Positions 664 to 30,021 of a stretch of 44,682 nt of DNA are shown here, in pieces (the stretch's first letter is position 1; each line of letters starts with the position of its first letter). The position numbers and the translations under genes were made by a program. The stretch covers positions 1-44,682 of the forward strand of contig JANYFN010000237.1 in assembly GCA_025362675.1 (NCBI GenBank), read 5' to 3'. Origin of the DNA: Limisphaerales bacterium (lineage in GTDB: Bacteria; Verrucomicrobiota; Verrucomicrobiia; Limisphaerales; UBA11358). The notes below the pieces were generated by a model that ran no database searches, was not told where the DNA came from, and was given only the letters and a program-made list of their open reading frames with translations.

Positions 664-2031
664 CTAACGGTTCCCCAATTCGCCGAGAACTTTTTTTAGT
701 TCGGCCACCGCACATTTCAACTGCGCTTCGTTAATGGTGAGCGGCGGGGTGAAGCTGATGATGTTGCCGTGTTCGCCTTCCGGCAAAAAAATATAGCCGC
801 GATGAAGTAGTTTTTTGATCGCGGACAAAGCCAGTTCGGTGGCGGGTTTTCCGTCCGGCAAATTGATTTCAACAGCAGCCATCAAGCCGAGGCCGCGCGA
901 AGAAGTGATGAGTGATGAGTGATGAGTGATGAGCTGATTCAGTTCGCCCAACAAAAATTTCCCCAGTGCCGCGCTGCGTTCCGGCAATTTAAATTTTTTA
1001 AGCTCCGCAATTTGCGCCAACGCCATCGCGCACCCGACGGGATGGCCGAGAAACGTGCTGGTGTGAATCGCCTCGCCGTTCGAGGCCGGCCACGCGGCAT
1101 CCATCACATTCGCTCGGCCAACACAGGCGGAAAGTGGGAAGCCGCCGGTGAGCGCCTTGCCGAGGCAGATCAAATCCGGGATGGTTTTTGAGTGCTCGCA
1201 CGCAAACCATTTTCCCGTGCGACCAAAGCCGGTGTAAATTTCATCGAGAATCAAAAGTGCGCCAAACTCGTCACACAGTTTTCGGAGCAGCGGGAGAAAT
1301 TCTAGCGGCGGAATGTTAGTGCCGCCACGCGCTTGAATCGGTTCGACGAGAATCGCGCCGATTTTTTCGTGGCGGAAAATTTCACGGAGGCGGGCTTCGG
1401 TATTTTTGTAGGAGTCGAGGTGACGAGACTCTTTTTGTTTTTTTGATTTGAGACTCCGCACGTCGTCTCCTACAGGGAATGGCACGAAGCTACCGAACTC
1501 ACGAAGTTGCGTGCGGAACGGGCTGCGGAAATGTTCGCGGTGCGTGGCGTTGAGCGCGCCATAACCGAGGCCGTGATACGCGCCCTCGAAGGCAATGACG
1601 CCACGCTTGCCGGTGGCGAGCATTGCGGTTTTGAGCGCAGCTTCTACCGCCTCGAAACCGGAGCTGCCGAAAATAACTTTTCCCGTGATTCGTGATTCGT
1701 GATTCGTGACGCGTGACCAGCGCTCAAAAGTGAGCTCACTCAATTTTTTTGCGAGCTGCGCTTTGAGCGCGTGCGGATGCACATCGCCCATCGCGTGCAG
1801 GAGTTTCGCCATTTGCTTTTGCCCGGCGCGGACAACATTTTTATTGGCGTGTCCAGCAGCGGCGACGCCAAAAGCGGCGGTGAGATCTAAATACTTTCCC
1901 CCTTCCGCATCCCACACATGAACACCCTTGGCGCGCTCCCAAACAATCGGCCACGAGCCATCTGGTTCAGTGAAGGTGATGTTCCGTGATTCGTAATCAC
2001 GAAGCAGGGCAATGGTTTTTTGCGTTTTCAT
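664..2031 (-). CDS. Class III (ornithine/acetylornithine-type) PLP-dependent aminotransferase, carrying in-frame repeat insertions
   Basis: 455 aa; LLILDEIYTGFGRTGKWFACEH, GKALTGGFPLSACVG, SSGFEAVEAALKTA motifs. Confidence 0.88.
   Translation of the reverse strand: MKTQKTIALLRDYESRNITFTEPDGSWPIVWERAKGVHVWDAEGGKYLDLTAAFGVAAAGHANKNVVRAGQKQMAKLLHAMGDVHPHALKAQLAKKLSELTFERWSRVTNHESRITGKVIFGSSGFEAVEAALKTAMLATGKRGVIAFEGAYHGLGYGALNATHREHFRSPFRTQLREFGSFVPFPVGDDVRSLKSKKQKESRHLDSYKNTEARLREIFRHEKIGAILVEPIQARGGTNIPPLEFLPLLRKLCDEFGALLILDEIYTGFGRTGKWFACEHSKTIPDLICLGKALTGGFPLSACVGRANVMDAAWPASNGEAIHTSTFLGHPVGCAMALAQIAELKKFKLPERSAALGKFLLGELNQLITHHSSLITSSRGLGLMAAVEINLPDGKPATELALSAIKKLLHRGYIFLPEGEHGNIISFTPPLTINEAQLKCAVAELKKVLGELGNR
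905..932. repeat. Heptamer array, GTGATGA x4 (28 bp), inside aminotransferase ORF
   Basis: Four perfect tandem GTGATGA units; encodes the LITHHSSLITSS stretch on the minus strand. Confidence 0.9.
1408..1473. repeat. Palindromic element inside aminotransferase ORF
   Basis: Left arm GTAGGAGTCGAGGTGACGAGACTC (1408-1431), right arm GAGACTCCGCACGTCGTCTCCTAC (1450-1473); 19/24 complementary positions around a T-rich loop; ORF stays open across it (DDVRSLKSKKQKESRHLDSYKN). Confidence 0.75.
1684..1718. repeat. Heptamer array, CGTGATT x3 + CGTGACG + CGTGACC, inside aminotransferase ORF
   Basis: Five consecutive 7-bp units; encodes RVTNHESRIT on the minus strand. Confidence 0.9.
1985..2001. repeat. 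Short perfect inverted repeat built from the CGTGATT unit
   Basis: CGTGATT-CGT-AATCACG near the 5' end of the aminotransferase ORF. Confidence 0.5.
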
Positions 2032-2037
2032 TTTTAA

Positions 2038-2123
2038 CCACAGATGGACACAGATTCATACAGATGGAAAAAAATCCATCCGTTGCGAATCTGAATCTGT
2101 GTTTATCTGTGTTCAATCTGTGG
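2038..2123. repeat. Intergenic decamer-based inverted repeat (CACAGATnnn family), copy 1
   Basis: Terminal CCACAGAT (2038-2045) / ATCTGTGG (2116-2123); internal CACAGATGGA/CACAGATTCA/TACAGATGGA units on the left and inverted units on the right. Confidence 0.85.
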
Positions 2124-2125
2124 CT

Positions 2126-2869
2126 TCAAACTCCGCGTTGTTCCGGCGGCCAGATGATTTTGTGCTGCTGGATTTGGAAGCGCACGGGCAGGGCCCCGGC
2201 GATGATTTTTTCTGCCAAATCTTTTCGCGAAATCGGCGTGAGTCCGGCGGGAACGCGTTTCAGCACCTTGCTTTGTTGCTCTGGTGTGAGCGGATGCACC
2301 CACGAAAATAGCAGCGGACAAATGGTGGCCAGCGCGTGTTCTGCGATTTGTTTTTTCGCCCAGTCGTAGTCTTCCTGTGTGCTGATGACGAACTTGATTT
2401 CGTCCGTCGCCTTCAAATGTTTAATATTGGAAAATAAATTTTTTTCGACCTCGCCGCTGCCGGGGCATTTCAAATCCATGATGCGATGCACGCGCGGGTC
2501 GATTTTTGAAACGTCGTGCGCGCCGCTGGTTTCTATTAGCACGGTAAAACCTTCGTCGCACAACGCGTGCATGAGCGGCAGGGAGTTTCTTTGCAGCAGC
2601 GGCTCGCCACCGGTGAGTTCGACCAGCGGAAGTTTTGAATTTTTAATTTTTAATTTTGAATTTGAAAACGGTGCCGCCTGCCGTTTCACCTCCGCCAAAA
2701 TTTCCGCGAGCGTCTGCTTTTTACCTTCCGTGAAGGCATAGACGGTGTCGCAGAAGGAGCAGCGGAGATCGCAGCCGGTGAGCCGGATGAAGATGCACGG
2801 CAGTCCGGCAAAGGTGCTTTCCCCTTGCAGACTCAAATAGATTTCGTTGACGACGAGCGTGGCAGACAC
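2126..2869 (-). CDS. queE: 7-carboxy-7-deazaguanine synthase (radical SAM)
   Basis: MSATLVVNEIYLSLQGESTFAGLPCIFIRLTGCDLRCSFCDTVYAF ... LTGGEPLLQ. Confidence 0.93.
   Translation of the reverse strand: MSATLVVNEIYLSLQGESTFAGLPCIFIRLTGCDLRCSFCDTVYAFTEGKKQTLAEILAEVKRQAAPFSNSKLKIKNSKLPLVELTGGEPLLQRNSLPLMHALCDEGFTVLIETSGAHDVSKIDPRVHRIMDLKCPGSGEVEKNLFSNIKHLKATDEIKFVISTQEDYDWAKKQIAEHALATICPLLFSWVHPLTPEQQSKVLKRVPAGLTPISRKDLAEKIIAGALPVRFQIQQHKIIWPPEQRGV
2633..2660. repeat. Heptamer array (TTTTGAA, TTTTTAA, TTTTTAA, TTTTGAA; 28 bp) inside queE
   Basis: Four 7-bp units; minus-strand peptide NSKLKIKNSKL immediately before the LTGGEP motif. Confidence 0.9.
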
Positions 2870-2972
2870 GCAGGAAGTCTAACGTCTCCTAAAAAAAATG
2901 AAATGCGCTTCCGCACTGTCTGCGTTGGCTTTTTTGATTGAGTTGGATTATTTATACTGAGCAACTGCTACC

Positions 2973-4571
2973 ATGCTAAAACAATTTTTCCCCATCGCAG
3001 TGATCCTGACTTTTGAGCTGGTCATGCCCGCGGAGTCGCAGACGGAATTTCAGAACGCCATTGGCATCCCTGCTTTGCGCGCGGTAACTACCAACTTAAA
3101 CGGAGCGGGCATCCGCGTGGCGCAACCGGAAGCGAATCAGAACGGCGGTAATCCACCTTACGCCTTTGAAGTCAGTCCCGCCTACGTGGGCCAGCCGACA
3201 AATCTGTTCACTTACTATTCGCGGCTCGGTTCGGCGACAGGTTTCACCAATGGCGTTGGCGTCGAGTCATCGCATGGCGATTCCGTTGCCGGAATATTTT
3301 ATGGCGCGGCCTCCGGCACCGCGACGAACTTGGCGCATGTGGATAATTTTGATGCCGATTATTTTATTAACGCCTGCATCGTGAGCAACCTCGTTAGCTT
3401 CAATGCGGCGGTGGTGAACCAAAGTTTTGTGGATAGCGATACCAACAGCCAGTCGGCTTATGACGATGCTTACGACAATTATTCCTTGCAGCATAAAATA
3501 CTTTTTATCTCCGGTGCAGGTAATATCGGAATGACCGGCCCGCGCGTGCTGCCGCCGTCGACAAGTTACAATGGCATCAGCGTCAGCGCCTACTATGCCG
3601 GAACCAACTACGGCGGTATCGGACCGACACCCGCTGGCGGGAGGTGCAAGCCAGACCTGACCGGCTATTCACCATTCACCAGCACGAGCACGCCACTGGT
3701 CTCTGGCGCCGCCGCCCTATTAATGCAGGGTGCCTTGCGCGGCGACGGCGGGGCGGATACTAATTCAGCGGACGATTTTCGGACGATCAAAGCGCTCCTA
3801 CTCAACGGAGCGGTTAAGTTGATCGGCTGGACTAATTCCAGTTCCTCGCCGCTGGATGCCCGTCACGGCGCGGGTTTGTTGAATGTGTTCAACTCTTACG
3901 AACAACTCACCGGCGGTAAACAAGGCAGCATCATTTCCAATCTCGTGAGCACCGGCGCGGCACATCCGCCGACGGGAGCGAACGGCACCGTGACTGCCTT
4001 GAGCGGCTGGGATTTTCGGACGAACACCAGTAGCTCATCGCCCGGAAAAGATTCAATCCACCACTATTATTTCAATATAACGAATGCAAATTCATCGGTG
4101 AAATTCAGTGTCGCCGCCACCCTGGTTTGGAACCGCCAACTGAACCAACCCACTATCAACAACCTCAATCTATTTCTCTACAACACCGCGAACAGCAACC
4201 TCGTTTTGTGCAGCACCAGCCTCGTGGATAATGTCGAACATATTTACCAAAACAACTTGTCGCCCGGACGCTACGATTTGCAGGTGTGGAAAGCAGGCGG
4301 CAGCGGAATGGTCAGCGCGTCTGAGCCCTACGCGCTCGCGTGGCAGTTTGTATCAGCCCCGGCACTGACGATTTCTGGTGGCGCGAATCCCGCATTAACC
4401 TGGCCACTGTATCCGGCTGGATTTTTGATCGAGGCGCAAACGAATCTGTCCTCCGGAACTTGGAGCACGAATGGGTTTTCTACGCCCGACATCACGAATG
4501 GCTTGAACAGCATCCAGCTGAGCACGACGAATGCGGCGCAATTTTTCCGGCTGCGGTCGCCGAATTTTTGA
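2973..4571 (+). CDS. Secreted S8 (subtilisin-like) family protein with C-terminal beta-domain
   Basis: Signal-like N-terminus; SSHGDSVAGI (catalytic His region), SGAGNIG (oxyanion Asn region), STSTPLVSGAAALL (catalytic Ser region); C-terminus ...AAQFFRLRSPNF. Confidence 0.82.
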   Translation: MLKQFFPIAVILTFELVMPAESQTEFQNAIGIPALRAVTTNLNGAGIRVAQPEANQNGGNPPYAFEVSPAYVGQPTNLFTYYSRLGSATGFTNGVGVESSHGDSVAGIFYGAASGTATNLAHVDNFDADYFINACIVSNLVSFNAAVVNQSFVDSDTNSQSAYDDAYDNYSLQHKILFISGAGNIGMTGPRVLPPSTSYNGISVSAYYAGTNYGGIGPTPAGGRCKPDLTGYSPFTSTSTPLVSGAAALLMQGALRGDGGADTNSADDFRTIKALLLNGAVKLIGWTNSSSSPLDARHGAGLLNVFNSYEQLTGGKQGSIISNLVSTGAAHPPTGANGTVTALSGWDFRTNTSSSSPGKDSIHHYYFNITNANSSVKFSVAATLVWNRQLNQPTINNLNLFLYNTANSNLVLCSTSLVDNVEHIYQNNLSPGRYDLQVWKAGGSGMVSASEPYALAWQFVSAPALTISGGANPALTWPLYPAGFLIEAQTNLSSGTWSTNGFSTPDITNGLNSIQLSTTNAAQFFRLRSPNF

Positions 4572-5370
4572 CGTGGCCGAGTCCAAAGTATTTCCCGATT
4601 TTGTAGCTGGTAGAAATCGCGTCCGTGATAAAATTTTTTCCAATCTCCACCGCGTGCGGCAAAGCGTGGCCCAATGCCAGCGCAGCGCAGATCGCGGCGG
4701 AATAAGTGCAGCCGGTGCCGTGCGTGGAGACGCCGCGCACGAACGGCGCCGATAACAGTAATTCCGTCTCGCCGTCAAAAAAAACATCAATCGCTTCGCG
4801 GCAGTTTTTCAAATGGCCGCCTTTTACCAAAACGGCGCAGCCAAACCGTTGCTGAATCGTGCGGGCGGCGGTGCGTAAATCTTCCGGCGAGCGGATTTTT
4901 TGGTTGGCTAAAAATTCCGCTTCATCGAGGTTCGGCGTGACGAGGGTGGCGAGCGGCAGCAATTTTGCGCTTAGGATTTTTTCGGCGGAAGATTTTAACA
5001 ATCGCGCGCCGCTGGTGGAGACCAGCACGGGGTCAACCACGAGTTTTAAATTTTTACTTTTTATTTTTGAATTCTGGAAAAAATCCGCGACGGTCGAAAT
5101 GTTTGCTGCCGTGAACAACATTCCCGTTTTCACTGCCGTTGGTTTTAGTTCGGAAAACACCGCTTCCATTTGCTGGCGCAACATTTTGGGTGAGCAGGCT
5201 TCTACGGCGAGAACGTGGCGGGGATTTTGCGCGGTGAGACAGGCGATGGCGCTGGTGCCGTGGACGCCGAGTGCGGCAAAAGTTTTTAGGTCCGCTTGAA
5301 TTCCCGCGCCGCCGCCGCTATCGGAGCCGGCGATAGTCAGGGCCACGGGTAAAGTTTTTCGTTTTTTCAT
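4492..5370 (-). CDS. thiD: Hydroxymethylpyrimidine/phosphomethylpyrimidine kinase
   Basis: ALTIAGSDSGGGAGIQADLKTFAALGVHGTSAIACLTAQN ... VKGGHL ... STHGTGCTYSAAICAALALG. Confidence 0.94.
   Translation of the reverse strand: MKKRKTLPVALTIAGSDSGGGAGIQADLKTFAALGVHGTSAIACLTAQNPRHVLAVEACSPKMLRQQMEAVFSELKPTAVKTGMLFTAANISTVADFFQNSKIKSKNLKLVVDPVLVSTSGARLLKSSAEKILSAKLLPLATLVTPNLDEAEFLANQKIRSPEDLRTAARTIQQRFGCAVLVKGGHLKNCREAIDVFFDGETELLLSAPFVRGVSTHGTGCTYSAAICAALALGHALPHAVEIGKNFITDAISTSYKIGKYFGLGHVKNSATAAGKIAPHSSCSAGCCSSHS
5044..5071. repeat. Heptamer array (TTTTAAA, TTTTTAC, TTTTTAT, TTTTGAA; 28 bp) inside thiD
   Basis: Four 7-bp units; minus-strand peptide NSKIKSKNLKL just before VVDPVLV. Confidence 0.85.
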
Positions 5371-5383
5371 GGCACAGATGATT

Positions 5384-5878
5384 TCATTGTTGCGCGCAAA
5401 ATTCCAGCAGCGGCCCGCGCGTCTTGCGCATCAGGATTTCGTTCTGGCCGGCGACGAGAAAATTTTCCAGCTCGCCGGTTTTTTGGTAGCCGAGTTTTTT
5501 ATAAAATTTTTGTGCTCTCATGTTGAAGGACGAGACGCATAAAAAAACATTTTTGCTGCGCTGAAATATTTTTTCTTCCACGCCTTGCATGATCTTTTCT
5601 CCCAGACCGCGATTCTGAAATTCGGGAAACACGGCGAGGAGTTGAATGTAGCCGTCCAACGAGCCGCCGAGCTGCAAGATCACCACCCCGGCGATTTTTC
5701 CGGCTTGCTCGGCGACGAACACTTCGCGCTGCGGATTCGTCAGGTCTTGGAATAGTTTTTCCGCCAGAATACCCATCGTGCGCCACGGGCCGAAGGTCGC
5801 CAACCGCGCGGTGCAATCGCGCGCTTCGGCGTCGCCGCGCAGTGGCCGAAGGTGGAGTTCATTCATCCGATTGAGCAT
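5384..5878 (-). CDS. GNAT-family N-acetyltransferase
   Basis: C-terminal 164 aa of the 728-aa ORF: VAEQAGKIAGVVILQ ... YIQLLAVFPEFQNRGLGEKIMQ ... NMRAQKFYKKLGYQKTGELENF. The start is assigned at MLNRMNELHL because the upstream part is antisense to polX. Confidence 0.85.
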   Translation of the reverse strand: MLNRMNELHLRPLRGDAEARDCTARLATFGPWRTMGILAEKLFQDLTNPQREVFVAEQAGKIAGVVILQLGGSLDGYIQLLAVFPEFQNRGLGEKIMQGVEEKIFQRSKNVFLCVSSFNMRAQKFYKKLGYQKTGELENFLVAGQNEILMRKTRGPLLEFCAQQ

Positions 5879-5900
5879 GGCGACAAAAGTTGGGTCAGAC

Positions 5901-5921
5901 AACTTTGAACTTTGAACCCGG
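5901..5921. repeat. Short heptamer repeat (AACTTTG x2 + AACCCGG) between GNAT gene and polX
   Basis: AACTTTGAACTTTGAACCCGG in the divergent intergenic region. Confidence 0.5.
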
Positions 5922-5944
5922 CCGTTTGAATTTATATTTGGCGT

Positions 5945-7681
5945 ATGGATAAAGATAAAGTTGCCGAGACCCTCGTTGAGATTGGAACGCTGTTGGAATT
6001 GAAGGGCGAAAATCCTTTCAAGACGCGGGCTTATGGAAATGGCGCGCGAACGATCCAGGGTTTGACCGAGCCGCTGGAAAGAATTGTCGCCGAAAAACGG
6101 TTGGGCGAAATCAAGGGCATCGGCGCGGCGCTGGAACAAAAAATCACGGAGCTGGTTGAGACGGGGAAATTGAAATATTACGACGAGTTGAAAGCGTCGA
6201 TTCCGCCGGGACTGATCGAGATGCTCGATATTTCTGGTCTCGGTCCCAAAAAAATCCAGGCGATGCAGAAAAAACTGGGCGTGGATTCGATCGCGAAACT
6301 CGAAGCGGCGTGCCAGGCGGGCAAGGTGGCGGAACTCGACGGCTTCGGCGAAAAAACGCAGGCCAACATTTTGGAGGGCATCGAACTGAAGCGCACTTAC
6401 GCCAGCAAACACCGGCTTGGCGATGCGCTCGCGGTGGCGGAGCCGTTGCTGGAACAGTTGCGCGAGCACCCAGATGTGATCCGTTGTGGGACGGCGGGCA
6501 GCTTGCGACGGTTCAAGGAAATCATCGGTGACATTGATCTGCTGGCGTCGTCGAAACATGCGGCGGCGGTGATTGAGTTTTTTGTTTCGCAACCGGGCAT
6601 CGTAAAGGTGCTGGCCCAAGGTGAGACGAAGGCGAGCGTGATCACTGAGGGCGGCATCCAGTGCGATTTGCGCGTGGTGAGCGATGCTGAATTTCCCTTT
6701 GCGCTGGCCTATTTTACCGGGAGCAAGGAACACAATATCGTGATGCGGCAGCGGGCCATTCAGCATGGACTGCGGCTGAATGAATACGGCTTGTTCAAGT
6801 CGAAGGAAGAAACGCGCGATGCAAAATTGCTCGTGGCGTGCAAAACCGAAGAGGAGATTTTTCAGAAACTGGACTTGGCCTTTGTGCCGCCGGAGTTGCG
6901 CGAAGATCACGGAGAATTTGCGGCCGCCGAAAAAAACGATCTGCCGAAGTTGATCGAGTGGACGCAACTGAAAGGCGCGCCGCACAATCACTCGACGTGG
7001 AGCGATGGCAAAAACACTTTGCAAGAAATCGCGACTTACATGGAGGAGCTGGGCTTGGAATATTGGGCGATCACAGATCACTCGAAGGCGTCGTTTCAGG
7101 CGAACGGGTTGGATGCGAAACGGCTGCGCGAACAGATCGTTGAGATCAAAAAATTGAATGAAAAAATTGCCGGCCGCGGGAGTGAATTCAGGCTGTTGAC
7201 CGGGAGCGAGGTGGACATTTTGAAAGACCGTTTGGATTTCGACGACGACGTTTTGGCGGAGCTGGATGTCGTGGTCGCCAGTTTGCATGTTCCTTCGAGT
7301 GACGAAAATGAAAATACGAAACGACTGATCCGCGCGGCTGAAAATCCTTTTGTTCACACACTTGGTCACCTCACGGGGCGCCTGCTGCTGGAGCGCGAGC
7401 CATATCCGGTCAATGTTCATGCGGTCATCGACGCCTGCGCGGAAACGGGAACGTGGATTGAGCTGAATTGCAATCCGTGGCGGTTTGATCTGGACTGGCG
7501 GCACTGGTTCTACGCCAAGCGCAAAGGTGTGAAATGTGTCATCAATCCGGACGCGCATCGGAACGCGCACGCGGGATTTTTGCGGCTTGGCGCCGGCTTG
7601 GCGCGGAAGGGTTGGTTGACGGCGGGCGATGTCGTGAACACTTTACCGTTGGAGAAACTGCGGGCAGTGTTGAGGCGTTGA
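5945..7681 (+). CDS. polX: DNA polymerase/3'-5' exonuclease PolX (Pol X domain + PHP domain)
   Basis: HhH repeats (GIGAALEQKI, ISGLGPKKI), GTAGSLRRFKEIIGDIDLLASS polymerase motif, PHP domain APHNHSTWSDGKNTLQEIA ... ITDHSKA ... INPDAHR. Confidence 0.95.
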   Translation: MDKDKVAETLVEIGTLLELKGENPFKTRAYGNGARTIQGLTEPLERIVAEKRLGEIKGIGAALEQKITELVETGKLKYYDELKASIPPGLIEMLDISGLGPKKIQAMQKKLGVDSIAKLEAACQAGKVAELDGFGEKTQANILEGIELKRTYASKHRLGDALAVAEPLLEQLREHPDVIRCGTAGSLRRFKEIIGDIDLLASSKHAAAVIEFFVSQPGIVKVLAQGETKASVITEGGIQCDLRVVSDAEFPFALAYFTGSKEHNIVMRQRAIQHGLRLNEYGLFKSKEETRDAKLLVACKTEEEIFQKLDLAFVPPELREDHGEFAAAEKNDLPKLIEWTQLKGAPHNHSTWSDGKNTLQEIATYMEELGLEYWAITDHSKASFQANGLDAKRLREQIVEIKKLNEKIAGRGSEFRLLTGSEVDILKDRLDFDDDVLAELDVVVASLHVPSSDENENTKRLIRAAENPFVHTLGHLTGRLLLEREPYPVNVHAVIDACAETGTWIELNCNPWRFDLDWRHWFYAKRKGVKCVINPDAHRNAHAGFLRLGAGLARKGWLTAGDVVNTLPLEKLRAVLRR

Positions 7682-7732
7682 TGCTGTGGCCAGAAATGGA
7701 ATTAGCTTATGGAATTCGGCCCGAAAAAAGTT

Positions 7733-7762
7733 TTGACTGTTAGCTTGGGCAACTGATAGATT
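7733..7762 (+). promoter_or_regulatory. Possible sigma70-type promoter upstream of the exopolysaccharide gene set
   Basis: TTGACT - 18 nt - TAGATT, about 65 bp upstream of the ATG at 7827. Motif match only. Confidence 0.3.
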
Positions 7763-7826
7763 GCTCGGACGAATTGGTTACAAAGGCTTTTGAGCCCAAA
7801 AGTTAGAACTTAACTCCTGACGTTGC

Positions 7827-9107
7827 ATGAAAAAAATTATTGTCTCTGCCGGTTTGGTTGCCATCGGGGCGGCCGGAATACAAACAGCCATGGGGGCAAT
7901 GTCCGACGTTATTTCACCAAAGGCTTGGAGTGTGGGCGCTACTTTGCGCGGTTTTTATGATGACAATTACGCCATTGGCACCAAGAGCAAGGGCAGCGGC
8001 GGCTTCGAAGTTTCACCCAACATTCAAGTCAATGTTCCTTTCCGGCAGACCGACATTGGAATGCGCTATAATTACGGCGTTTATTACTACCAAGATCGTC
8101 AAGACATCGGCGTTAATCCAATTGACCAGTCCCACCAGCTAGAGCTTTGGCTTGATCATAAATTTAACACCCGCTGGCATCTAAATCTGACCGATTCGTT
8201 TGCCGTGGGTCAAGAGCCGGAGCTGTTACAGACCAGTTCATCCCAACCATTTCGCGTCGCTGGCGACAACATGGTCAATCACGCAAATATTTCCCTGGAA
8301 ACACAGTGGACAAAGAATTTTAACACCTCGGTGCATTATGGCAATACGCTGGTGGATTATGATAACCATGGTGGAAATGCAGTAACTCCCAGTTTGTCGG
8401 GCACGCTCGATCGCATTGAGCACAGCATGGGGATCAATTTTAATTGGGTGTTAGCGCCGGAGACGAGTGCGTTCATTGGCTACAACTTTGGCTTGGTTAA
8501 TTACACTGGCGGTGAGGATATTGCGTCCACGCTAGTGCCGACGCCTTTAATTTACCGAAGCGATTCCCGGGATAACATGACGCACACTGCGTTCTTGGGC
8601 GTAAAGAAGCAATTGACGCCAAACATGACCGGCAGCATCAGCGCGGGAGGCAATTACACGGATAATTATAATAATCCGCGCGAACACGACACCTCACTCT
8701 CTCCCTATGGTGATTTGAACCTTAGCTACACCTTCATTCCCGGAAGTTATGTTCAATTGGGTATCAGTCATGACATCAACTCTACAGATGTTGTTGCGCC
8801 TAACCAAACCACTGGAAAAATTACGCAGTATCAGCAAAGCACGGTGATTTATGCTGATTTGAATCACAAATTCACTTCCAAGCTGGCCGGCACGCTGATT
8901 GGCCGCTTTCAAAACTCACAATATCAGGGCGGACAGAACGACAGTCAGAACGACCAAAGTTACGGTGTGGGTGTAAATTTGCATTATCAAATCAATCAGC
9001 ACTTTTCTACTGAAGTCGGCTACAATTTTGACGATTTAATATCTGGGTTGGGCGGACGCTCCTACGAACGTAACCGGGTTTACCTTGGTGTAAGCGCCAG
9101 TTATTGA
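7827..9107 (+). CDS. Outer-membrane beta-barrel protein of exopolysaccharide export type
   Basis: Signal peptide (MKKIIVSAGLVAIGAAGIQTAMGA), alternating amphipathic strands, C-terminal ...RVYLGVSASY; adjacent to wzc/wza-like genes. Confidence 0.75.
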   Translation: MKKIIVSAGLVAIGAAGIQTAMGAMSDVISPKAWSVGATLRGFYDDNYAIGTKSKGSGGFEVSPNIQVNVPFRQTDIGMRYNYGVYYYQDRQDIGVNPIDQSHQLELWLDHKFNTRWHLNLTDSFAVGQEPELLQTSSSQPFRVAGDNMVNHANISLETQWTKNFNTSVHYGNTLVDYDNHGGNAVTPSLSGTLDRIEHSMGINFNWVLAPETSAFIGYNFGLVNYTGGEDIASTLVPTPLIYRSDSRDNMTHTAFLGVKKQLTPNMTGSISAGGNYTDNYNNPREHDTSLSPYGDLNLSYTFIPGSYVQLGISHDINSTDVVAPNQTTGKITQYQQSTVIYADLNHKFTSKLAGTLIGRFQNSQYQGGQNDSQNDQSYGVGVNLHYQINQHFSTEVGYNFDDLISGLGGRSYERNRVYLGVSASY

Positions 9108-9140
9108 AGTTTTTTTGCGACATTTTTTGAACGCAACTCG

Positions 9141-9177
9141 GGGGAGCCCGGTCTTAATCTGGCTCCCCTAATTTTTT
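9141..9177 (+). terminator. Hairpin plus T-rich tract between OM-barrel gene and BY-kinase gene (terminator/attenuator)
   Basis: GGGGAGCC (9141-9148) / GGCTCCCC (9161-9168) followed by TAATTTTTT. Confidence 0.75.
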
Positions 9178-21786: not shown

Positions 21787-21870
21787 AATAAAAAAATTTA
21801 TGCGCTAAACTTCATCCGTCAAAGGATTTTTCTTGAGTCATTTTCCATAATGCCATAAGCAGCCGCAACC

Positions 21871-22395
21871 ATGAAAATGAAAATCGCCCTTGCGCTACCG
21901 ATTGTTGTTTGTGCAGCGATTGTTTGGTTTCTGATGCAAACGCAAAAACAATTGAGCGCTGAAAACGAATTGTTGCGGCGGCAAATCACACAATTGAACG
22001 ATCAAACCAATCAAATTTCTGCCGAAGATAAATTTCAACTTCGTGAATGGCACATGATAAACGCAATGAAAGAACTTTGCGTTGCGATGCGTTTATTTGC
22101 AGAAGATCACAACCGGCGATATGCAACTAATTTCAACGAGATTTCAATTGAGTTTGGACCTTCAGACAAAATAAATTTTGATTGGTTTGAATTTGTAAAT
22201 ATCAATCGAGTGGATGCGTCAACAACGAACGCAATTATATTTCGAGAACGACTTCCTCGTGTTGCTCCCAATGGCTGGTGGTATCGTATTTATGGTCTGG
22301 CCAATGGTGAGGTTCAATCAGTATTTGGCGATGAACATGGCGACGCGAAAAAATTCATCGAATACGAACACCAACACTCGCCGCCAAATCAATAA
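21871..22395 (+). CDS. Hypothetical membrane-anchored protein with short coiled coil
   Basis: N-terminal TM ([17 protein letters not shown]) then [23 protein letters not shown]; 174 aa. Confidence 0.65.
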
Positions 22396-24563
22396 GGCAG
22401 CGGGAATTTCGCCGTGAGATCGTGCACGCGGTCGCGGACTTTGTGTGCGGTCTCGATGTTTTTGATATCCATCAATACTTCGGAAATCATGTCAGCGATG
22501 GCGGCCATCTCGGGTTCCTTCATGCCGCGCGTGGTGCAAGCGGGTGAACCAAGGCGGATGCCGCTGGCCTGAAACGGTGAGCGCGTCTCGAACGGAATCG
22601 TGTTTTTATTCACGGTGATACCAGCCTCGTCCAGCGCGATCTGCGAATCTTTGCCGGTGATGCCTTTTGCGCCCACGTCCACTTGGCACAGATGGTTATC
22701 GGTGCCGCCGCTGATGAGGCGGTAGCCGTTACGCTTCATGCCTTCAGCCAAGGTCGCGCAGTTTTTCACGACCTGTTGCTGATACGCTTTAAAACTGGGC
22801 GACAACGCTTCGTGGAAGCAAATCGCTTTGCCGGCGATGACGTGTTCCAATGGACCACCTTGAATGCCGGGGAAAATATTGGAATCAATTTCCTTCGCAT
22901 ATTTCTCTCTCGTCAAAATCAAGCCGCCGCGCGGACCGCGCAAGGTTTTATGCGTCGTGGTCGTCACGAAATCCGCATGCGCCATCGGACTCGGATGAAT
23001 CCCCGCCGCGACGAGGCCGGCGATGTGCGCAATGTCCGCCAACAAATAAGCACCTACTTCGCGCGCGATCTCACCCATGCGCTGAAAATCAATCACGCGG
23101 GAATAAGCACTCGCGCCGATGGTGATCATCTTCGGCTTGTGTTCCCGCGCCATCGTCGCGATTTGATCGTAATCAATCCGCTCGGTTTCTTTGTTCACGC
23201 CGTAGTGGACGATCTCAAAAAATTTGCCGGAGAAATTCGCCTTGTTACCGTGCGTCAAATGTCCGCCGTGGCTCAGATCCATCGTGAGCATTTTGTCACC
23301 CGGTTTTAGGAACGCAAAATAAACGGCCATGTTCGCGCCGGAGCCGGAGTGCGGCTGCACGTTGGCGTGTTCGGCACCGAACAGTTTTTTCGCGCGATCA
23401 ATCGCCAATTGCTCAATGATATCAATGTTTTCGCAGCCACCATACCAGCGTTTTTTCGGATAACCTTCCGCGTATTTATTCGTCAGCACGGAGCCTTGCG
23501 TTTCCATCACAGCGGGGCTGGTGAAATTTTCGGACGCGATCAGCTCAATGTTTTCCTGCTGGCGCGTGCGCTCGCGTTCAATGGCGACAGCGACCTCGGG
23601 ATCTACATTCGCAATGCGGAGGTTGGCCGGAGCGAGCTTGGTGTCCATCTTGCGCACGCGGCGCTCGTGGCGACCGCCTTCAAACTTGGCCCCGAGGAAC
23701 GCATCAAGAATTTTTTTTGCGACATCTGGGGGCGTGGTTTTGCCGGCGAGGCAGAGGACATTGGCATCGTTGTGTTGACGGGTCATCGCGGCGGTGGCGG
23801 GATCGTTCACGAGGGCAGCACGGATGCCGCCGACTTTGTTCGCCGTGATGCATACGCCGATGCCGGTAGTGCAAATGAGCAGACCGAGTTCCGCGTGACC
23901 GGCGGCGACGGCCTTGGCGACGGCGAGCGCGAAGTCAGGATAGTCGCACGATTCCGTCGAGTTCGTGCCGTGATCCGCGATGCTCAAGCCGAGACTGCGG
24001 AGGTGCGCCTTGAGAATTTCTTTGAGTTCAAACCCGCCATGATCCGCGCCGAGGGCGACGTTGACCGGCCGGGTGGAGGATTCAGTCTCGTTCTTAGACA
24101 AAAAATTATTTTGTTCCATAAATTTAATAAGCGTAACGATGCCTTGCTCAATTTGGTCGCGGCATTCCACATAGGTCTGATACGGGCTACCGATGGGATC
24201 GCTGATGTCTTTCTCGTAAGTCTCCAGCGTGTCGTCAAATTCGCGCAGCAAAAAAGTTTTTTCCAACGCCGTTGGGTAGAGCAACAGGACGGTGTCCACA
24301 TGGCTGTGCGTCATGCCGAGGATCAAATCCGCCGAGCGCACCATATCGGCCGTGAGAGCATTACTGCGCTGCCGGGAAATATCGATCCCGATTTCCTTCA
24401 TCGCCGTGACGGAATGGTGCGTGGGCTCGTCGCCGTCAATCGCGCCCAGGCCGGCGGATAGAATGCGGAACTCGCCACGACCCTTGATGGCGTGACGGAA
24501 AAGTCCCTCGGCCATCGGGCTGCGACAGACGTTGCCGGTGCAAAGAAATAGAATTGTTTTCAT
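22389..24563 (-). CDS. Trifunctional fusion: LMW protein phosphatase - ribose-5-phosphate isomerase B - serine hydroxymethyltransferase
   Basis: One uninterrupted 724-codon ORF. aa 1-150 LMWP ([19 protein letters not shown]); aa 167-305 RpiB ([28 protein letters not shown]); aa 306-724 GlyA ([35 protein letters not shown]). Confidence 0.92.
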
Positions 24564-24720
24564 CCCAAACGTGAACGGAAAAGGTGATTGGCCGGAGGCA
24601 GAACGTCAATGCGAAACCGCAGGGCGGAACGGGCCACAACGGTGGAAACGGAGTTAGCAACCGCCGGTGAGGTAATTTGCTTTGGTTTCAATGTTTCGTC
24701 CGTTTGCGCCATTAAAAATT

Positions 24721-25392
24721 TCATCCCCGCGTCCGGTGTAATACCGCCAGCGCCTTCAGCAGATCCACCGCCCGGGCCAATGCGGGATCATGGACAACGG
24801 GTTGCGCGGGTGTAGCGCGGGGCGACCCAGAGTCTTCTTCCTCACCATCCTTCACACTTTTGCGGACGAGTTCCGCTTCACTCGTGTGGTCAACATAAAA
24901 CATCAAGTTCGTCGCGCCAGCTAAGGTGCCGGCACCGGTGGCCAGTGTGTTGGTGAAGGGGTTTTCCAGAAACCTTTTTTCATCCTCCGCGGCCAATGGC
25001 ACGCGGATATCCGCTGGAATCGCCGCCGCCGCATTTGTGCCGCAGGCGATCACTACTGCCCCGGCTGAATGGAGTTGCCCCGCCAGCGTCGCGGCCGCGC
25101 CTTGGGTCTGGCCGTCAACCAGGATGACGAGCGGCGATTTTTTTGCGGAAAAATAATCCAGCGCCGCCTGTGCACTGTCACCATTCGCGCCGCGCAGGTC
25201 GAGAATGGTGCCCGCCAGCTGATTGGTTGGTTCAGCGGCGTGAAGTTGGCCTGCAAAATTTTCGGTGACGCGGTTCGCCGAAACCCACAGCAGGTTGTTT
25301 TCTAAAACCGAAACGACCGGCACCGTGCCCGCCGCGTGACTGGCCGCCGCGAGACAGCCCATGGAAAAAAGTAAAACTGCGCAAAATTTCAT
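24721..25392 (-). CDS. Secreted hypothetical protein, possibly a degenerate S41-peptidase-like domain
   Basis: Start reassigned to MKFCAVLLFSMGCLAAASHAAG (signal peptide) within the 292-aa ORF; TILDLRGANGD...PLVILVDGQTQGAAATLAGQLHSAGAVVIACG. Confidence 0.7.
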   Translation of the reverse strand: MKFCAVLLFSMGCLAAASHAAGTVPVVSVLENNLLWVSANRVTENFAGQLHAAEPTNQLAGTILDLRGANGDSAQAALDYFSAKKSPLVILVDGQTQGAAATLAGQLHSAGAVVIACGTNAAAAIPADIRVPLAAEDEKRFLENPFTNTLATGAGTLAGATNLMFYVDHTSEAELVRKSVKDGEEEDSGSPRATPAQPVVHDPALARAVDLLKALAVLHRTRG

Positions 25393-25511
25393 CGGCCAAA
25401 AAATGCGCCACCTCGACCGGAAAGTAAAGGGGCTTGCGGGCAAACACTTTGTTTGAAAATGATTCGCCGGGTTGTAGTCAGCGGTTTTCCTCATTATAAT
25501 CAGCCCAATTT

Positions 25512-26675
25512 GTGAGCGCCCAAAAATCCGACAACGAGTTGTCCCCCATGCGGCTGGCCTTACGGCTGGCGCGGAAAGGTCTAGGCTCGACCTCGCCAAA
25601 TCCGACGGTGGGCGCGGTGCTGATGAAAAACGGAAAAATCATCGGGCGCGGTCGGACCGCGCCGGCCGGTGGCCCGCACGCAGAAATTGCCGCGCTGCGT
25701 GATGCGGCCAAGCGCAAAAACAATCCTCGCGGCGCGACTTTGTTTGTTACCCTAGAACCTTGTTGCACGCATGGCCGCACACCGCCGTGCACGGATGCGA
25801 TCATCGCCGCCGGTATAAAAAAAGTGGTGGTCGGCGCCACCGATCCGAATCCCCGGCACGCGGGCAAAGGCTTTCAGATTTTGCAGCGCGCGGGAATCGA
25901 GGTTGTGGTCGGCATTTTAAGCGATGAGTGCGCGCAGTTAAATGAGGTTTTTAATCACTGGATTGTCGCGCGCACGCCGTTAGTGACCGTCAAGGCGGCG
26001 ATGACATTGGATGGAAAAATTGCGACGGCTAGCGGCGAGTCAAAATGGATCACCGGCGAAAAGGCCCGTGAATATGGGATGAAATTGCGTCGCACCCGCG
26101 ATGCGATTCTTGTGGGCGTGAACACGGTGATCGTGGATGATCCGAGCCTGACGGCGAGAAGTCCGAAGCCCGAAGTCCGAAGCCGGAATAAAAACCTGAA
26201 GTTGCGGCGCATTATTTTGGATTCGCGGGCGCGCACGCCGTTGACGGCAAAAATTGTGAACGATGAATTTGCCGCGCTGACCACGATTGTAGTCAGTCGA
26301 AACGCACCCAAAAAACGCGTGGCAGAATTATCCAAGCGGGTGAATGTTCTGATTGCGCCGGTAGCCAATTCAAAATTCAAAATTAAAAATTCAAAACTCG
26401 ATTTGCGCTGGCTGCTGAAAAAACTTGGCTCGCAAAACGTCACCAGTCTGTTGGTCGAAGGCGGGGGCGAAGTGAACGCTTCCTTCTTGCTCGGCGGATT
26501 CGCCCAGCGCGTGGCATTTTTTTATGCGCCGAAAATTCTTGGTGGCCGCGACGCGCGCAAAGGCGTTGCCGGCGATGGTGCGAAACGATTGAGCGAAGTC
26601 GTGCAACTCGACGACATCCAGTGGCGCACGCTGGGCGAAGATTTGTTGCTCACAGCCAAAGTGGTTGCTGGTTGA
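25512..26675 (+). CDS. ribD: Bifunctional diaminohydroxyphosphoribosylaminopyrimidine deaminase / 5-amino-6-(5-phosphoribosylamino)uracil reductase
   Basis: GTG start; PNPTVGAVL, GGPHAEIAAL, TLEPCCTHGRTPPC, KAAMTLDGKIATASGESKWITG, SLLVEGGGEVNASFL. Confidence 0.95.
   Translation: MSAQKSDNELSPMRLALRLARKGLGSTSPNPTVGAVLMKNGKIIGRGRTAPAGGPHAEIAALRDAAKRKNNPRGATLFVTLEPCCTHGRTPPCTDAIIAAGIKKVVVGATDPNPRHAGKGFQILQRAGIEVVVGILSDECAQLNEVFNHWIVARTPLVTVKAAMTLDGKIATASGESKWITGEKAREYGMKLRRTRDAILVGVNTVIVDDPSLTARSPKPEVRSRNKNLKLRRIILDSRARTPLTAKIVNDEFAALTTIVVSRNAPKKRVAELSKRVNVLIAPVANSKFKIKNSKLDLRWLLKKLGSQNVTSLLVEGGGEVNASFLLGGFAQRVAFFYAPKILGGRDARKGVAGDGAKRLSEVVQLDDIQWRTLGEDLLLTAKVVAG
26158..26185. repeat. Heptamer array (GAAGTCC, GAAGCCC, GAAGTCC, GAAGCCG; 28 bp) inside ribD
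   Basis: Four 7-bp units; encodes SPKPEVRS after the VDDPSLTAR motif. Confidence 0.88.
26369..26396. repeat. Heptamer array (TTCAAAA, TTCAAAA, TTAAAAA, TTCAAAA; 28 bp) inside ribD
   Basis: Four 7-bp units; encodes NSKFKIKNSKL. Confidence 0.92.
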
Positions 26676-26698
26676 ACGTTGAAAGTTGCAGGTTGGAA
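26671..26698. repeat. Heptamer array (GTTGAAC, GTTGAAA, GTTGCAG, GTTGGAA) spanning the ribD stop codon
   Basis: Four 7-bp units; ribD TGA stop at 26673-26675 lies in unit 1. Confidence 0.8.
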
Positions 26699-26704
26699 AA
26701 ACTT

Positions 26705-26732
26705 GCAACCTGCAACCTGCAACCTGCAATCT
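26705..26732. repeat. Heptamer array (GCAACCT x3 + GCAATCT), inverted relative to 26671-26698
   Basis: Four 7-bp units; GTTGCAGGTTG (26685-26695) pairs perfectly with CAACCTGCAAC (26706-26716). Confidence 0.88.
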
Positions 26733-26738
26733 TGCTCC

Positions 26739-27347
26739 ATGTTTACCGGCATTGTCGAAGAAGCGGGCGTAGTTGAAAAAATCACGCCGACAAAAAAATC
26801 CATTTCTCTCATTGTGCGCGCGGGTGCGTTGGCGCGCGGGGTGAAACTCGGCGCGAGCGTGGCGGTGAACGGCTGTTGCCTGACGGTCGTGAAAATTTCC
26901 GCGCGCGGAACATTCAAATCACTTCATTTTGATGTGCTCCAGGAATCGTGGACGCGCACGAATCTGCAATTCGCGAAACCAGGTTCGCTGGTGAATCTCG
27001 AACGGCCGCTCCGCGCTGACGGCGAACTCGGAGGGCATTTTGTGACTGGCCACGTGGACGGCGTCGGTAAAATCGTTCGCTGGGAAAAATCTGGCGCGGA
27101 TCACGTGCTCGAAATCGCCGCGCCGCCCGACGTGTTGCGCTACATCGTCTTCAAAGGTTCCATCGCGGTGGACGGCATCAGCCTCACCGTGGCGGGCGTG
27201 AGTAAGAAAAGTTTTCGGCTATGGATCATCCCCCACACGTTTGAAGTCACGACCCTGCGCGAACGAAAAATTGGCGACGCGGTGAATCTGGAGGCGGATT
27301 TATTGGGCAAATATGTGGAGCGGTTTCTGGCGGCGCGAACCCGTTGA
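26739..27347 (+). CDS. ribE: Riboflavin synthase alpha subunit
   Basis: MFTGIVEEAGVVEKI ... VNGCCLTVV ... GGHFVTGHVDGVGKI ... VDGISLTVAGV; start taken at MFTGIVEE. Confidence 0.94.
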   Translation: MFTGIVEEAGVVEKITPTKKSISLIVRAGALARGVKLGASVAVNGCCLTVVKISARGTFKSLHFDVLQESWTRTNLQFAKPGSLVNLERPLRADGELGGHFVTGHVDGVGKIVRWEKSGADHVLEIAAPPDVLRYIVFKGSIAVDGISLTVAGVSKKSFRLWIIPHTFEVTTLRERKIGDAVNLEADLLGKYVERFLAARTR

Positions 27348-27424
27348 GGGCAAGTCTGTTTCATTGCTTGAAAATGTAACGCTAATGCCGCATAATCGTC
27401 ACCTAACTTGGACAGTCTATTTCC

Positions 27425-28186
27425 GTGAATATTACGAAAGATTCCGTTCGTCTGCTGGTCGGCTCCGCCGGTCAATATGCGATTCGTCTGGCCCGCTCCA
27501 CTGCAGAAGTGCGGGCGGCGCAGCAGTTGCGTTTTGAAGTTTTCAATCTCGAACTAAACGAGGGCTTGGAACAATCTTACGCCACCGGCTTGGATGAAGA
27601 TCCGTTCGACGCCGTGTGCGATCATTTGATTGTCGAGCAAGCTGCCACCGGCCACATCGTCGGCACATATCGTTTGCAGACCGGTGCGAGTGCGGCGAAA
27701 AATCTGGGCTACTATTGCGCGCAGGAATTTGAATTTTCCGTCTTTGAACCGTTACGGAATGAAATTGTTGAGCTCGGCCGCGCTTGTGTGCATCGCCAGC
27801 ATCGCAATCTCGTCGTGCTCGGCCTGCTGTGGAAAGGGATCGCGGATTATGCGACGGAACGCGGCGCGCGTTATCTCATCGGCTGTAGTTCCCTCACCTC
27901 GCAGAACCCGGCCGAGGGCGCCTCCGCTTATTCTGAGCTGTGCCGCAAAAATTTGGTGGCCGCACCGTTTCGCACCCAGCCGCTCGCGGCCTATGAATGT
28001 CCACTCGACCACGTGACGGGGGAAAAAATTCAGATTCCCAAACTCCTCCGCGCTTATCTCACCGTCGGCGCGAAAATCTGCGGCCCGCCCGCGCTGGACC
28101 GCCATTTCCAGACCATTGATTTTCTCACGCTGCTCGACATCGAATCGCTGACACCGCAGACGCGTGAACGGTTTTTCGGCCAGTAA
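27425..28186 (+). CDS. GNAT-like N-acyltransferase, OlsB type (ornithine-acyl-ACP acyltransferase-like)
   Basis: GTG start; AAQQLRFEVFNLELNEGL ... DEDPFDAVCDHLIV ... GTYRLQTG ... IVELGRACVHRQHRN ... LIGCSSL. Confidence 0.82.
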   Translation: MNITKDSVRLLVGSAGQYAIRLARSTAEVRAAQQLRFEVFNLELNEGLEQSYATGLDEDPFDAVCDHLIVEQAATGHIVGTYRLQTGASAAKNLGYYCAQEFEFSVFEPLRNEIVELGRACVHRQHRNLVVLGLLWKGIADYATERGARYLIGCSSLTSQNPAEGASAYSELCRKNLVAAPFRTQPLAAYECPLDHVTGEKIQIPKLLRAYLTVGAKICGPPALDRHFQTIDFLTLLDIESLTPQTRERFFGQ

Positions 28187-28201
28187 TTTCCCCTCGCCAA
28201 T

Positions 28202-28942
28202 TTGCTGATGACCTTGCGTGCCGCCGGAAAACTAGGTTGGTTCCTCCTGCAAGTCGCGGGCAATTGCGGTAATTATCTTTTCACCACGGCGTTCGTTCCC
28301 GCCAAAAATAAACGTCGCGCCCGCGCCGCGTGGATGCACCGGTGTGCGCGGCGACACCTGAAAATTTTCGGCTGCGTGCCAAAAATTTTCGGTGAAATTC
28401 CCGCGCGCGGCCTGCTCGTCTCGAATCATTTGAGCTACTTCGACATTTTGCTCATCGGCTCCGTGACGCCCGCCGTGTTTGTTTCCAAGGCGGATGTGCG
28501 CGGCTGGCCGCTGATTGGCTGGCTCACCAAATTGTCGGGAACGGTTTTCATCGAACGCGCACGTCGCTCGCACGTCGGCGCGGTGAACCGAGAAATTGAA
28601 TCCGCGCTCGCCGATGATTTGCTCGTCGTGGTTTTTCCGGAAGGCACGAGTTCCAATGGCGAAACTGTTTTGCCGTTTCGCTCCTCGTTGCTGGAACCGG
28701 TGTTGCGCGGCGGACAGGAAATTCATGTTTCGCGTATCCGCTACGAACTCACTGACGGCGATGCGGGCAACGAAGTTTGCTATTGGGGCGACCACTCTTT
28801 TTTCCCGCACCTGCTGAATCTCCTCGGTAACAAGTCGGTGCAAGCCCAACTCCGTTTCGGGTCTTTCCAGAGCCAGACCGACGACCGCAAAGAACTCGCT
28901 GCGCAACTCCACGCCGCCGTTGCCAGCCTTAAAGTTTCTTGA
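28202..28942 (+). CDS. 1-acylglycerol-3-phosphate acyltransferase-like (PlsC/OlsA family)
   Basis: HX4D motif NHLSYFD, FIERARRSHVGAVN, FPEGTSSNGETVLPFRSSLLEP. Start TTG 28202 or ATG 28208. Confidence 0.88.
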   Translation: MLMTLRAAGKLGWFLLQVAGNCGNYLFTTAFVPAKNKRRARAAWMHRCARRHLKIFGCVPKIFGEIPARGLLVSNHLSYFDILLIGSVTPAVFVSKADVRGWPLIGWLTKLSGTVFIERARRSHVGAVNREIESALADDLLVVVFPEGTSSNGETVLPFRSSLLEPVLRGGQEIHVSRIRYELTDGDAGNEVCYWGDHSFFPHLLNLLGNKSVQAQLRFGSFQSQTDDRKELAAQLHAAVASLKVS

Positions 28943-28998
28943 CGCCGTTTTACCTCTGGACTTTATCTGCGAGCGGGCGTATCTAGCTGCCAATCGCT

Positions 28999-29397
28999 AT
29001 GCATACCATGATTGTTCCAGTCGTTCTGGTGGGAATGTTTTCTCTGATCGTCATAATTTTCCTAGCGGCTGTAGCATTTCTTATCATTCATTCCGCTCGT
29101 TCCGCGCGCCGCAATAATTTTCCCCAGAGTCAATTTCCCGGCGGCGTGGGAGCCTTTGGAATGGTTGATCCAATTGTCCCTCCGCCGGTGATGATGGATG
29201 ACGGTGCGTCGGCAAATTCAATGCCCCACCCGGACGATCGGCACCCTGGCCATCACGGGCAAGATAGTCATCAAAGTCACGCGCCGGCACCAGATGCCGG
29301 GAGTTTTGGCGGCAGTCACCACGGCGGCGGTTTTGATTCCGGCGGTGGAAGTTTTAACGGCGGAGATTCCGGTGGCGGCGGCGGCCACAGTCATTAA
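28999..29397 (+). CDS. Small single-TM protein with His/Gly-rich tail
   Basis: TM VPVVLVGMFSLIVIIFLAAVAFLIIH; C-terminus HPDDRHPGHHGQDSHQSH...GGSHHGGGFDSGGGSFNGGDSGGGGGHSH. Confidence 0.65.
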   Translation: MHTMIVPVVLVGMFSLIVIIFLAAVAFLIIHSARSARRNNFPQSQFPGGVGAFGMVDPIVPPPVMMDDGASANSMPHPDDRHPGHHGQDSHQSHAPAPDAGSFGGSHHGGGFDSGGGSFNGGDSGGGGGHSH

Positions 29398-29448
29398 GTA
29401 AAGTAGGCCAAGCAGGTTTACGGCGGAATTTTTCCACGCGCTACAGCG

Positions 29449-29985
29449 TCACCACTTCACCGGCGTGGTCATTTTTTTGCCAAAGCGGTTGTTGTAATGA
29501 ATCTGCCGGTGTTGTTGGCCGTATTCGTAAACGAGTTTTGTGATCTTCACATCGTAGCAACAATACTCAGCAATTTCAGCGAGTTTGCCCTCCTTCCACC
29601 ACCGGATCGCCTGCAAACCTTCCGCCGTTTTTTCCACACCGAACGTCGCCGTCGCGATGGAATCGAGCGAGAGACGGTGACCAAGCGTTTCGTTCAGGAC
29701 TACGAGCATATCGAGCGTGGGAAGTTGCGTGAGATCAAACGACGTGTAACCGTGCAACACTTCGTAGTCGAAGCGCAAATGATTGAAGCCGACGATGAGA
29801 TCGGCGCGCTGCAAATCCTTGATGAGGTCGTCCACTTGTTTCTCCCCATAAATTTTATATTCGCCCGTGACACTGCTGCACGTCACGCCGATGCTCATGC
29901 CCATCTTGGAAATGTTGCCCCAGCCGCCGACTTCATCGGCGGACTTTTGCGTTTCCAGATCGAAATAGAGAATGTTTTTGGACAT
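29449..29985 (-). CDS. RNase H-like / DnaQ-type 3'-5' exonuclease domain protein
   Basis: NILYFDLETQKSADEVGGWGNISKMGMSIGVT ... IVGFNHLRFDYEVL ... DSIATATFG ... EYCCYDVKITKLVYEYG. Confidence 0.85.
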   Translation of the reverse strand: MSKNILYFDLETQKSADEVGGWGNISKMGMSIGVTCSSVTGEYKIYGEKQVDDLIKDLQRADLIVGFNHLRFDYEVLHGYTSFDLTQLPTLDMLVVLNETLGHRLSLDSIATATFGVEKTAEGLQAIRWWKEGKLAEIAEYCCYDVKITKLVYEYGQQHRQIHYNNRFGKKMTTPVKW

Positions 29986-29993
29986 GACATGAA

Positions 29994-30021
29994 TTTACGA
30001 TTTCTGATTTCTGATTGACGA
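29994..30021. repeat. Heptamer array (TTTACGA, TTTCTGA, TTTCTGA, TTGACGA; 28 bp), intergenic
   Basis: Four 7-bp units just upstream of the exonuclease gene start. Confidence 0.8.

Follow-up and report, generated by a model that had tools for sequence, protein, structure and literature searches.

Heptanucleotide tandem arrays in genes of a Limisphaerales bacterium and the probable role of the reading frame in their four-copy preference

Why should tandem arrays of seven-nucleotide units, with many different unit sequences, so often stop at about four copies, and why do they occur in genes as well as between them? The question is raised by a contig of a Limisphaerales bacterium (JANYFN010000237.1, 44,682 nt; referred to as the window), which is contig 212 of a 4.3-Mb draft genome in 306 contigs. 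The closest relatives of this genome are metagenome-assembled genomes of Limisphaerales/Verrucomicrobia subdivision 3. In the window, Pfam scans place heptamer arrays in the genes for a class-III aminotransferase (two arrays), a radical SAM protein (one), ThiD (one) and RibD (two). We favour local bursts with a sequence preference as their origin, templated insertion being the main rival. Specifically, we consider it probable, though well short of assured, that heptanucleotide bursts arise by 7-nt backward slippage, are filtered in genes by the reading frame to a seed plus three units, and recur in tolerant loops.

Period-7 excess and the 21-nt step

Of all repeat periods between 2 and 30 counted in the window, 7 stood above a fifth-order Markov null, as did its harmonic 14, and no other did; 5 to 6 arrays were observed against 0 to 0.1 expected. 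Another 790 kb from other contigs of the same genome held 9 strong period-7 arrays with 0 expected under a Markov null, while each other period except the harmonic 14 gave 0 to 1; 324 kb of a relative held 12, again with 0 expected. Genome-wide counts are those of a sample, since the analysis covered about 1.1 Mb out of 4.3 Mb. Two data sets were used: an unbiased sample of 1.09 Mb picked irrespective of arrays, and all data, which adds loci picked for bearing arrays. The unbiased sample contained 33 arrays, i.e. about one per 33 kb, so that the window is unusually array-rich. Tandem 7-nt units are present beyond statistical expectation, which places them among the heptanucleotide long simple sequence repeats (LSSR). 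The dispersed family of arrays with differing units, in genes and between them, that an initial annotation of the window had proposed is borne out by Tandem Repeats Finder and the Markov null alike. That annotation had also asked for a scan of copy numbers across the genome against shuffled controls; a peak at four units that exceeds the null exists, in genes only.

Orthologous loci were retrieved by searches of 40 genomes of the same genus, which represent about 40 species, all compared genomes being drafts. The length difference at the array between array genes and their array-less homologues peaked at 0 and +7 residues (84 pairs), with 17 pairs each at +6 and +8 as neighbours of the latter peak; the pairs are not independent but come from about half a dozen sites, and site-level statistics rest on few sites. 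The aligned segment of the second ribD site, RibD2, comprised 19 codons when occupied and 12 when empty. Likewise, the radical SAM site had 37 versus 30 codons, and the aminotransferase site AT1 13 versus 6 and 17 versus 10. At RibD2, taking 21 nt out of the array of genome G009 leaves a sequence that agrees with the empty allele of the sister genome, G020, in 32 of 36 positions; therefore the repeated unit at this site stems from local sequence.

The number of extra units depended on coding context. Lag-7 runs in coding DNA of the unbiased sample (963 kb) comprised 5 with one extra unit, 10 with two and 13 with three or more, compared to 6, 3 and 1 in its small non-coding part (99 kb). The contrast between one-unit and three-or-more-unit runs had a p of 0.02 in the unbiased sample and of 5e-5 in all data. 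Per kb, one-unit expansions were about 12 times rarer in genes, while three-unit expansions were not depleted there; outside genes, one- and two-unit expansions predominate. Perfect in-gene arrays peaked sharply at 32 bp (15 arrays, compared to three of 31 bp, three of 33 bp and one of 34 bp). In non-coding DNA the peaks were at 17-18 and 24-27 bp, and a single array reached 61 bp. These lengths fit 7n bp added to a seed of about 11 bp, formed by 4 nt that recur at a spacing of 7 nt; n is 3 for arrays in genes. In genes, arrays would be mostly of four units because no smaller number of added heptamers keeps the frame. Thus the four copies are best read as a reading-frame filter acting on one plus three units, not as a fixed cassette. 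The near-constant copy number of four noted in the initial annotation is seen in genes and not in non-coding DNA, and seed plus three units, a gain of 21 nt, is its best reading. Between relatives copy number does vary, by occupied and empty alleles and, in non-coding arrays, from 2.6 to 8.7 units, as in LSSR. Because three-unit states are undepleted and one- or two-unit intermediates would shift the frame, we infer that the three units are added in a single event.

During replication or repair, the nascent strand may slip by 7 nt in the backward direction. Short repeats of about 4-5 nt, spaced 7 nt from each other, would prime the slippage, and one event would copy the identical 7 nt several times. 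Outside genes any number of added units would survive. Within genes the frame would be preserved only by a gain of three units, i.e. +21 nt or 7 codons, and the survivor would be seed plus three, approximately four units and near 32 bp. Tolerant loops, few per protein, would receive repeated insertions; identical loops may be hit repeatedly because insertions survive only there. Arrays would be gained, decay, collapse and be replaced by arrays of another unit. The polymerase step, the single-burst nature and the role of the 4-nt seed are parts of the scheme that we infer.

Arrays of the window and their sites

Tandem Repeats Finder called period-7 tracts at 904-938, 1684-1709, 2633-2663, 26158-26188, 26367-26396, 26670-26695 and 26700-26729, and a shorter one at 29999-30016. 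A length of exactly 4 x 7 = 28 bp, as first described, holds approximately: the tracts span 25-35 bp, or 3.6-4.9 units, and the in-gene peak of perfect arrays lies at 32 bp. The aminotransferase gene (664-2031, minus strand) carries CATCACT/AGTGATG in 4.3-4.9 copies at 904-938 (site AT2, residues ~366-376) and five TCACGNN units with the core TCACGAA at 1684-1718 (site AT1, residues ~105-116). At AT1 the array is present as annotated, but 3.7 of the five units are perfect and the remainder is degenerate; the occupied allele exceeds empty alleles by 7 codons. The radical SAM gene (2126-2869, minus strand) has 4.4 copies of AATTCAA/AATTAAA at 2633-2663, and the empty alleles of relatives are 7 codons shorter. 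In thiD (4492-5370, minus strand) the tract AATTCAAAAATAAAAAGTAAAAATTTAAAA at 5044-5071 (residues ~100-110) is a decayed array on its own, yet the site carries clear arrays in most relatives. The ribD gene (25512-26675, plus strand) holds GAAGYCC x 4.4 at 26158-26188 (site RibD1) and AATTCAA x 4.3 at 26367-26396 (RibD2).

At the junction of ribD and the riboflavin synthase gene, four degenerate GTTGNNN units (26671-26698) and four GCAACCT units (26704-26732), listed on the plus strand, form the left and right arms of an inverted pair. The pair, 26671-26732, is predicted to fold into an RNA hairpin of -34.5 kcal/mol (z -4.3). Such pairing is characteristic of non-coding arrays, 8 of 11 of which had an inverted partner within 160 bp. 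Among coding arrays the count was 3 of 82, and among controls 0-1 of 60 (Fisher p = 2e-7). As to a REPIN- or MITE-like mobility of the hairpins, two close genomes differ in that one carries such hairpins and the other lacks them; no target duplication was recognised, and no transposase search was made. The last tract, 29994-30021 between a divergent RNase_H_2-like gene and a redoxin gene, is weak and non-coding with 2.6 perfect GATTTCT units; it is unconvincing alone, and its membership is uncertain.

Of the 33 unbiased arrays 25 are located within genes, 5 between genes and 3 across a gene end, in DNA that is 88% coding by an approximate hexamer-based gene caller built for this analysis. In alignments to PDB chains in-gene arrays tend toward gaps and variable stretches, so they probably sit in loops; an AlphaFold model of the aminotransferase was unusable (mean predicted local distance difference test score 55), and the loop assignment rests on the PDB-chain alignments.

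Many orthologous loci in the genus carry arrays at the matching protein position with different units. In thiD the identical codons are occupied by AACTCAA, AATCGGA, AATCCGC, AATCCAA or ACGCCGC arrays, and the loop peptide ranges from NSKLKTKNLK via NRKSEIGNRK and NPQSAIRNPQ to TPHAARRTPP. Units at AT2 include CATCACT, CAGGTTT, AAAACTT, AAGTCCC, CATCCTC and AATTCCA, among others, with hardly any variation in length. In 24 genomes from other families of the order in-gene arrays are rare, and the thiD loop segment mostly has 32-36 residues versus 37 in the genus.

Insertions of other kinds were seen at some of these genes. In G004 (C88:14018-14842) thiD matches in three pieces with extra DNA at residues 102-106 and 189-190, which suggests longer in-frame insertions. 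Palindromic, non-heptameric in-frame insertions occur in tolerant loops of the aminotransferase at site 1 (L184 in G030, L166 in G005) and of ribD near residue 132 (L161 in G025, L148 in G028, L154 in G033); these insertions, for example GGCGAGACTCCGTCGAGCCC ... GGGCTCGACGGAGTCTCGCC in G025, recall palindromic elements inserted in genes. The gap between the aminotransferase and radical SAM genes (2039-2122) contains a hairpin whose two inverted arms, CACAGATGGACACAGATT... / AATCTGTGTTTATCTGTGTTCAATCTGTGG, consist of degenerate repeats of 10-11 nt in tandem, at a period other than 7; period-10 runs also occur in non-coding DNA and hardly in coding DNA. A short tract of AACTTTG x 2.4 (5901-5917) lies upstream of a gene for a PolX-family DNA polymerase with a PHP domain (5945-7681), which adjoins thiD, and at least three relatives have the tract near the matching place (L190:3049, L194:2916, L205:2927). 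Finally, a 724-aa reading frame at 22389-24563 matches a low-molecular-weight phosphatase, RpiB and serine hydroxymethyltransferase consecutively, an apparent triple fusion.

Turnover, unit vocabulary and competing explanations

The presence of arrays has no phylogenetic signal. On the genus tree, changes between occupied and empty states numbered 4 at RibD2, 9 at AT1 and 4 at the radical SAM site, compared to 4.5, 8.1 and 3.9 with shuffled labels. The initial annotation had proposed to look for empty sites in relatives, and empty alleles are interspersed across the genus, so that the segments are not simply ancestral. Genomes G003 and G024 are 85-94% identical in most aligned stretches and 97% identical in the thiD array, but carry arrays of unrelated units at two other sites (see below). 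From the label-like changes and these swaps we conclude that arrays are quickly gained, lost and replaced at few tolerant loops. At the ABC-transporter loci of two close genomes there were few arrays, and intergenic hairpins in one of the two only.

The units form a restricted vocabulary. The 92 arrays fall into 40 unit classes, mostly A-rich and without regular GGG tracts. An imperfect 30-mer, AATTCAAAATTAAAAATTAAAAATTCAAAA, recurs without change at two other genes of G000, inside the radical SAM gene and in thiD from a different species. We downgraded it as proof of copying because stop avoidance can force the pattern. Shared vocabulary may reflect either a process with sequence preference or arrays copied from a shared stock.

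Several observations weigh against local bursts filtered by the reading frame. Simple local slippage does not account for the shared vocabulary, the array swaps or the missing phylogenetic signal, although the last is in keeping with recurrent bursts. In G003 and G024 the radical SAM and AT1 arrays are 35% and 41% identical with unrelated units amid flanks of ~90% identity. The sites in thiD and AT2 swap units with hardly any change in length, and thiD of other families is shorter by about 4 codons, not 7. The counts are blurred by several two-unit-sized in-gene runs that may have arisen through decay of arrays, and the coding/non-coding contrast draws on a small non-coding sample. The 35 independent arrays fall into 19 unit classes with 30 coincident pairs, while random stop-free local heptamers lead one to expect 1.0 with a maximum of 6 in 2000 draws. 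Units at different loci of the same genome differ by 2.24 mismatches compared to 2.67 with shuffled labels, phylogeny not being controlled. A TTCAGGT array was present in 11 of 388 genomes of the phylum, from 10 genera, and the reversed string in none; several of these arrays are far longer than four units. The corresponding control for AACTCAA was uninformative as its reversed pattern is the identical array.

These data bear on templated insertion, by which ready-made arrays would be copied into new sites from a shared stock, or as a very small mobile element, with the frame filtering survivors. It would account for units shared at unrelated loci and similar within a genome, for the recurring 30-mer, for the array swaps between close species and for the one-sided distribution of TTCAGGT. 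Yet the net step is 21 nt and not a whole array of 28-33 nt, the RibD2 array is locally derived, neither shared flanks nor a target-site duplication was recognised, and the 30-mer may follow from avoidance of TAA stops in that frame. We regard templated insertion as unlikely, if worth serious attention. The initial annotation fared differently in its two proposals. A common generating mechanism is supported by one 7-nt process acting on many units, in genes and between them, and by the empty sites of relatives. A mobile or templated element class finds no support at RibD2, the best-resolved site, where the array is an expansion of local sequence; neither a target-site duplication nor a flanking element was found. 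The shared vocabulary makes a trans-acting template possible. In its boldest form, to which we give little credence, a dedicated lineage-specific heptamer-writing system would use a small stock of templates in trans to write arrays into tolerant gene loops and intergenic hairpins, replacing earlier arrays, and passive slippage would play no part.

We are slightly more sceptical still of stepwise microsatellite slippage with concerted evolution, possibly as phase variation, where one-unit drift through transient out-of-frame states and reversions would homogenise the units. Unit phase and core are partly retained per site (AAY... in ThiD, TCAA... at the radical SAM site), and heptamers are the most abundant long class of simple sequence repeats in many genomes (Mrazek 2007, as cited in PMC4679880 and PMC4692102). 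However, one-unit states are the ones depleted ~12-fold in genes, with three-unit states undepleted versus non-coding DNA; close relatives exchange units outright, and the affected genes are housekeeping genes. We set aside gradual concerted evolution as a sole cause, given that arrays differ wholly between species amid ~90% identical flanks.

Selection for the encoded loop peptide, e.g. NSKLKIKNSK, or for a bound protein could maintain arrays, in keeping with similar hydrophilic peptides in several loops and with many species being occupied at identical sites, but it is very improbable: the thiD peptide changes completely between species, for which reason we set a protein-level cause aside, other species carry empty alleles, and a period of 7 in DNA does not arise at the level of the protein. 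Explanations by chance, low complexity or assembly artefact hardly merit consideration for the array set, where Markov nulls and identical sites occupied in many separate genome assemblies rule out pure chance; the tract 29994-30021 taken alone could be due to chance.

Comparison with known systems

Heptanucleotide repeats are already known; their in-gene, loop-specific, three-unit behaviour appears to be new. In open papers we found no description of heptamers confined to +21-nt steps in protein loops, most subscription literature being outside the search. Slippage bursts filtered by the frame offer a simple testable reason for the four-copy preference in genes, namely that fewer than three added units break the frame. 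Across the genus, empty, fresh and decayed alleles at the orthologous loops make up a natural record of 7-nt bursts that happened repeatedly, which opens the preference of bacteria for a 7-nt step to direct testing. A separate puzzle is the vocabulary of units that loci share.

Rickettsia palindromic elements are small in-frame insertions at tolerated protein positions, and longer palindromes of conserved sequence. In-frame insertion is seen here, too, with +7 codons at RibD2, AT1 and in the radical SAM gene, but the coding arrays are non-palindromic, lacking inverted partners, and their units differ. The short tandemly repeated repetitive (STRR) heptamers of cyanobacteria have few fixed units, unlike the 40 classes in 92 arrays found here.

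As cited in PMC4679880 and PMC4692102, the survey of Mrazek et al. (2007) reports heptanucleotide repeats as the most abundant long class in many prokaryotes and suggests polymerase slippage; dominance of period 7 and the proposed link to slippage are shared with our arrays. Units of a multiple of three are commonest in coding DNA in that survey, as cited there, while here a 7-nt unit is found in genes roughly in proportion to coding DNA, seemingly filtered to +21 nt.

In Xanthomonas and Nostoc, GGGAATC/GGGGAYT repeats show a preference for four units and a mostly intergenic location, and convergent pairs are frequent among them (Rehm et al. 2015, PMC4692102). Our arrays share with them the heptamer, the four-unit preference, convergent inverted pairs and variation in length and sequence between relatives. 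However, those repeats are G-rich and belong to a single unit class; they have been interpreted as G-quadruplexes, and in Xanthomonas 89-93% of them are intergenic (PMC4692102), whereas the arrays described here have ~40 unit classes, are mostly not G-rich and reach four units in genes. Judged by the features of G-rich GGGNATC repeats, they show convergent inverted pairs, but neither quadruplex-capable G-tracts nor a mostly intergenic location (25 of 33 in genes). The frame does not explain the four-unit preference of the mostly intergenic Xanthomonas and Nostoc repeats, and our arrays show four units without G-tracts.

TAACTGA arrays of Beggiatoaceae and cyanobacteria are likewise short, dispersed heptamer arrays, mostly of few copies, with a few in reading frames, but they consist of a single unit and lie mostly just upstream of start codons (MacGregor 2015, PMC4679880); units and positions differ here. 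Tandem repeats of Borgs evolve fast and in frame (PLoS Biol 2023, PMC9879509). Like ours, they are recent and independent, occur in genes and between them with flanking partial repeats, are enriched in A and keep the frame. The difference lies in how the frame is kept: by an in-gene unit length divisible by three in Borgs (PMC9879509), and here, with a unit always of 7 nt, by the addition of three units.

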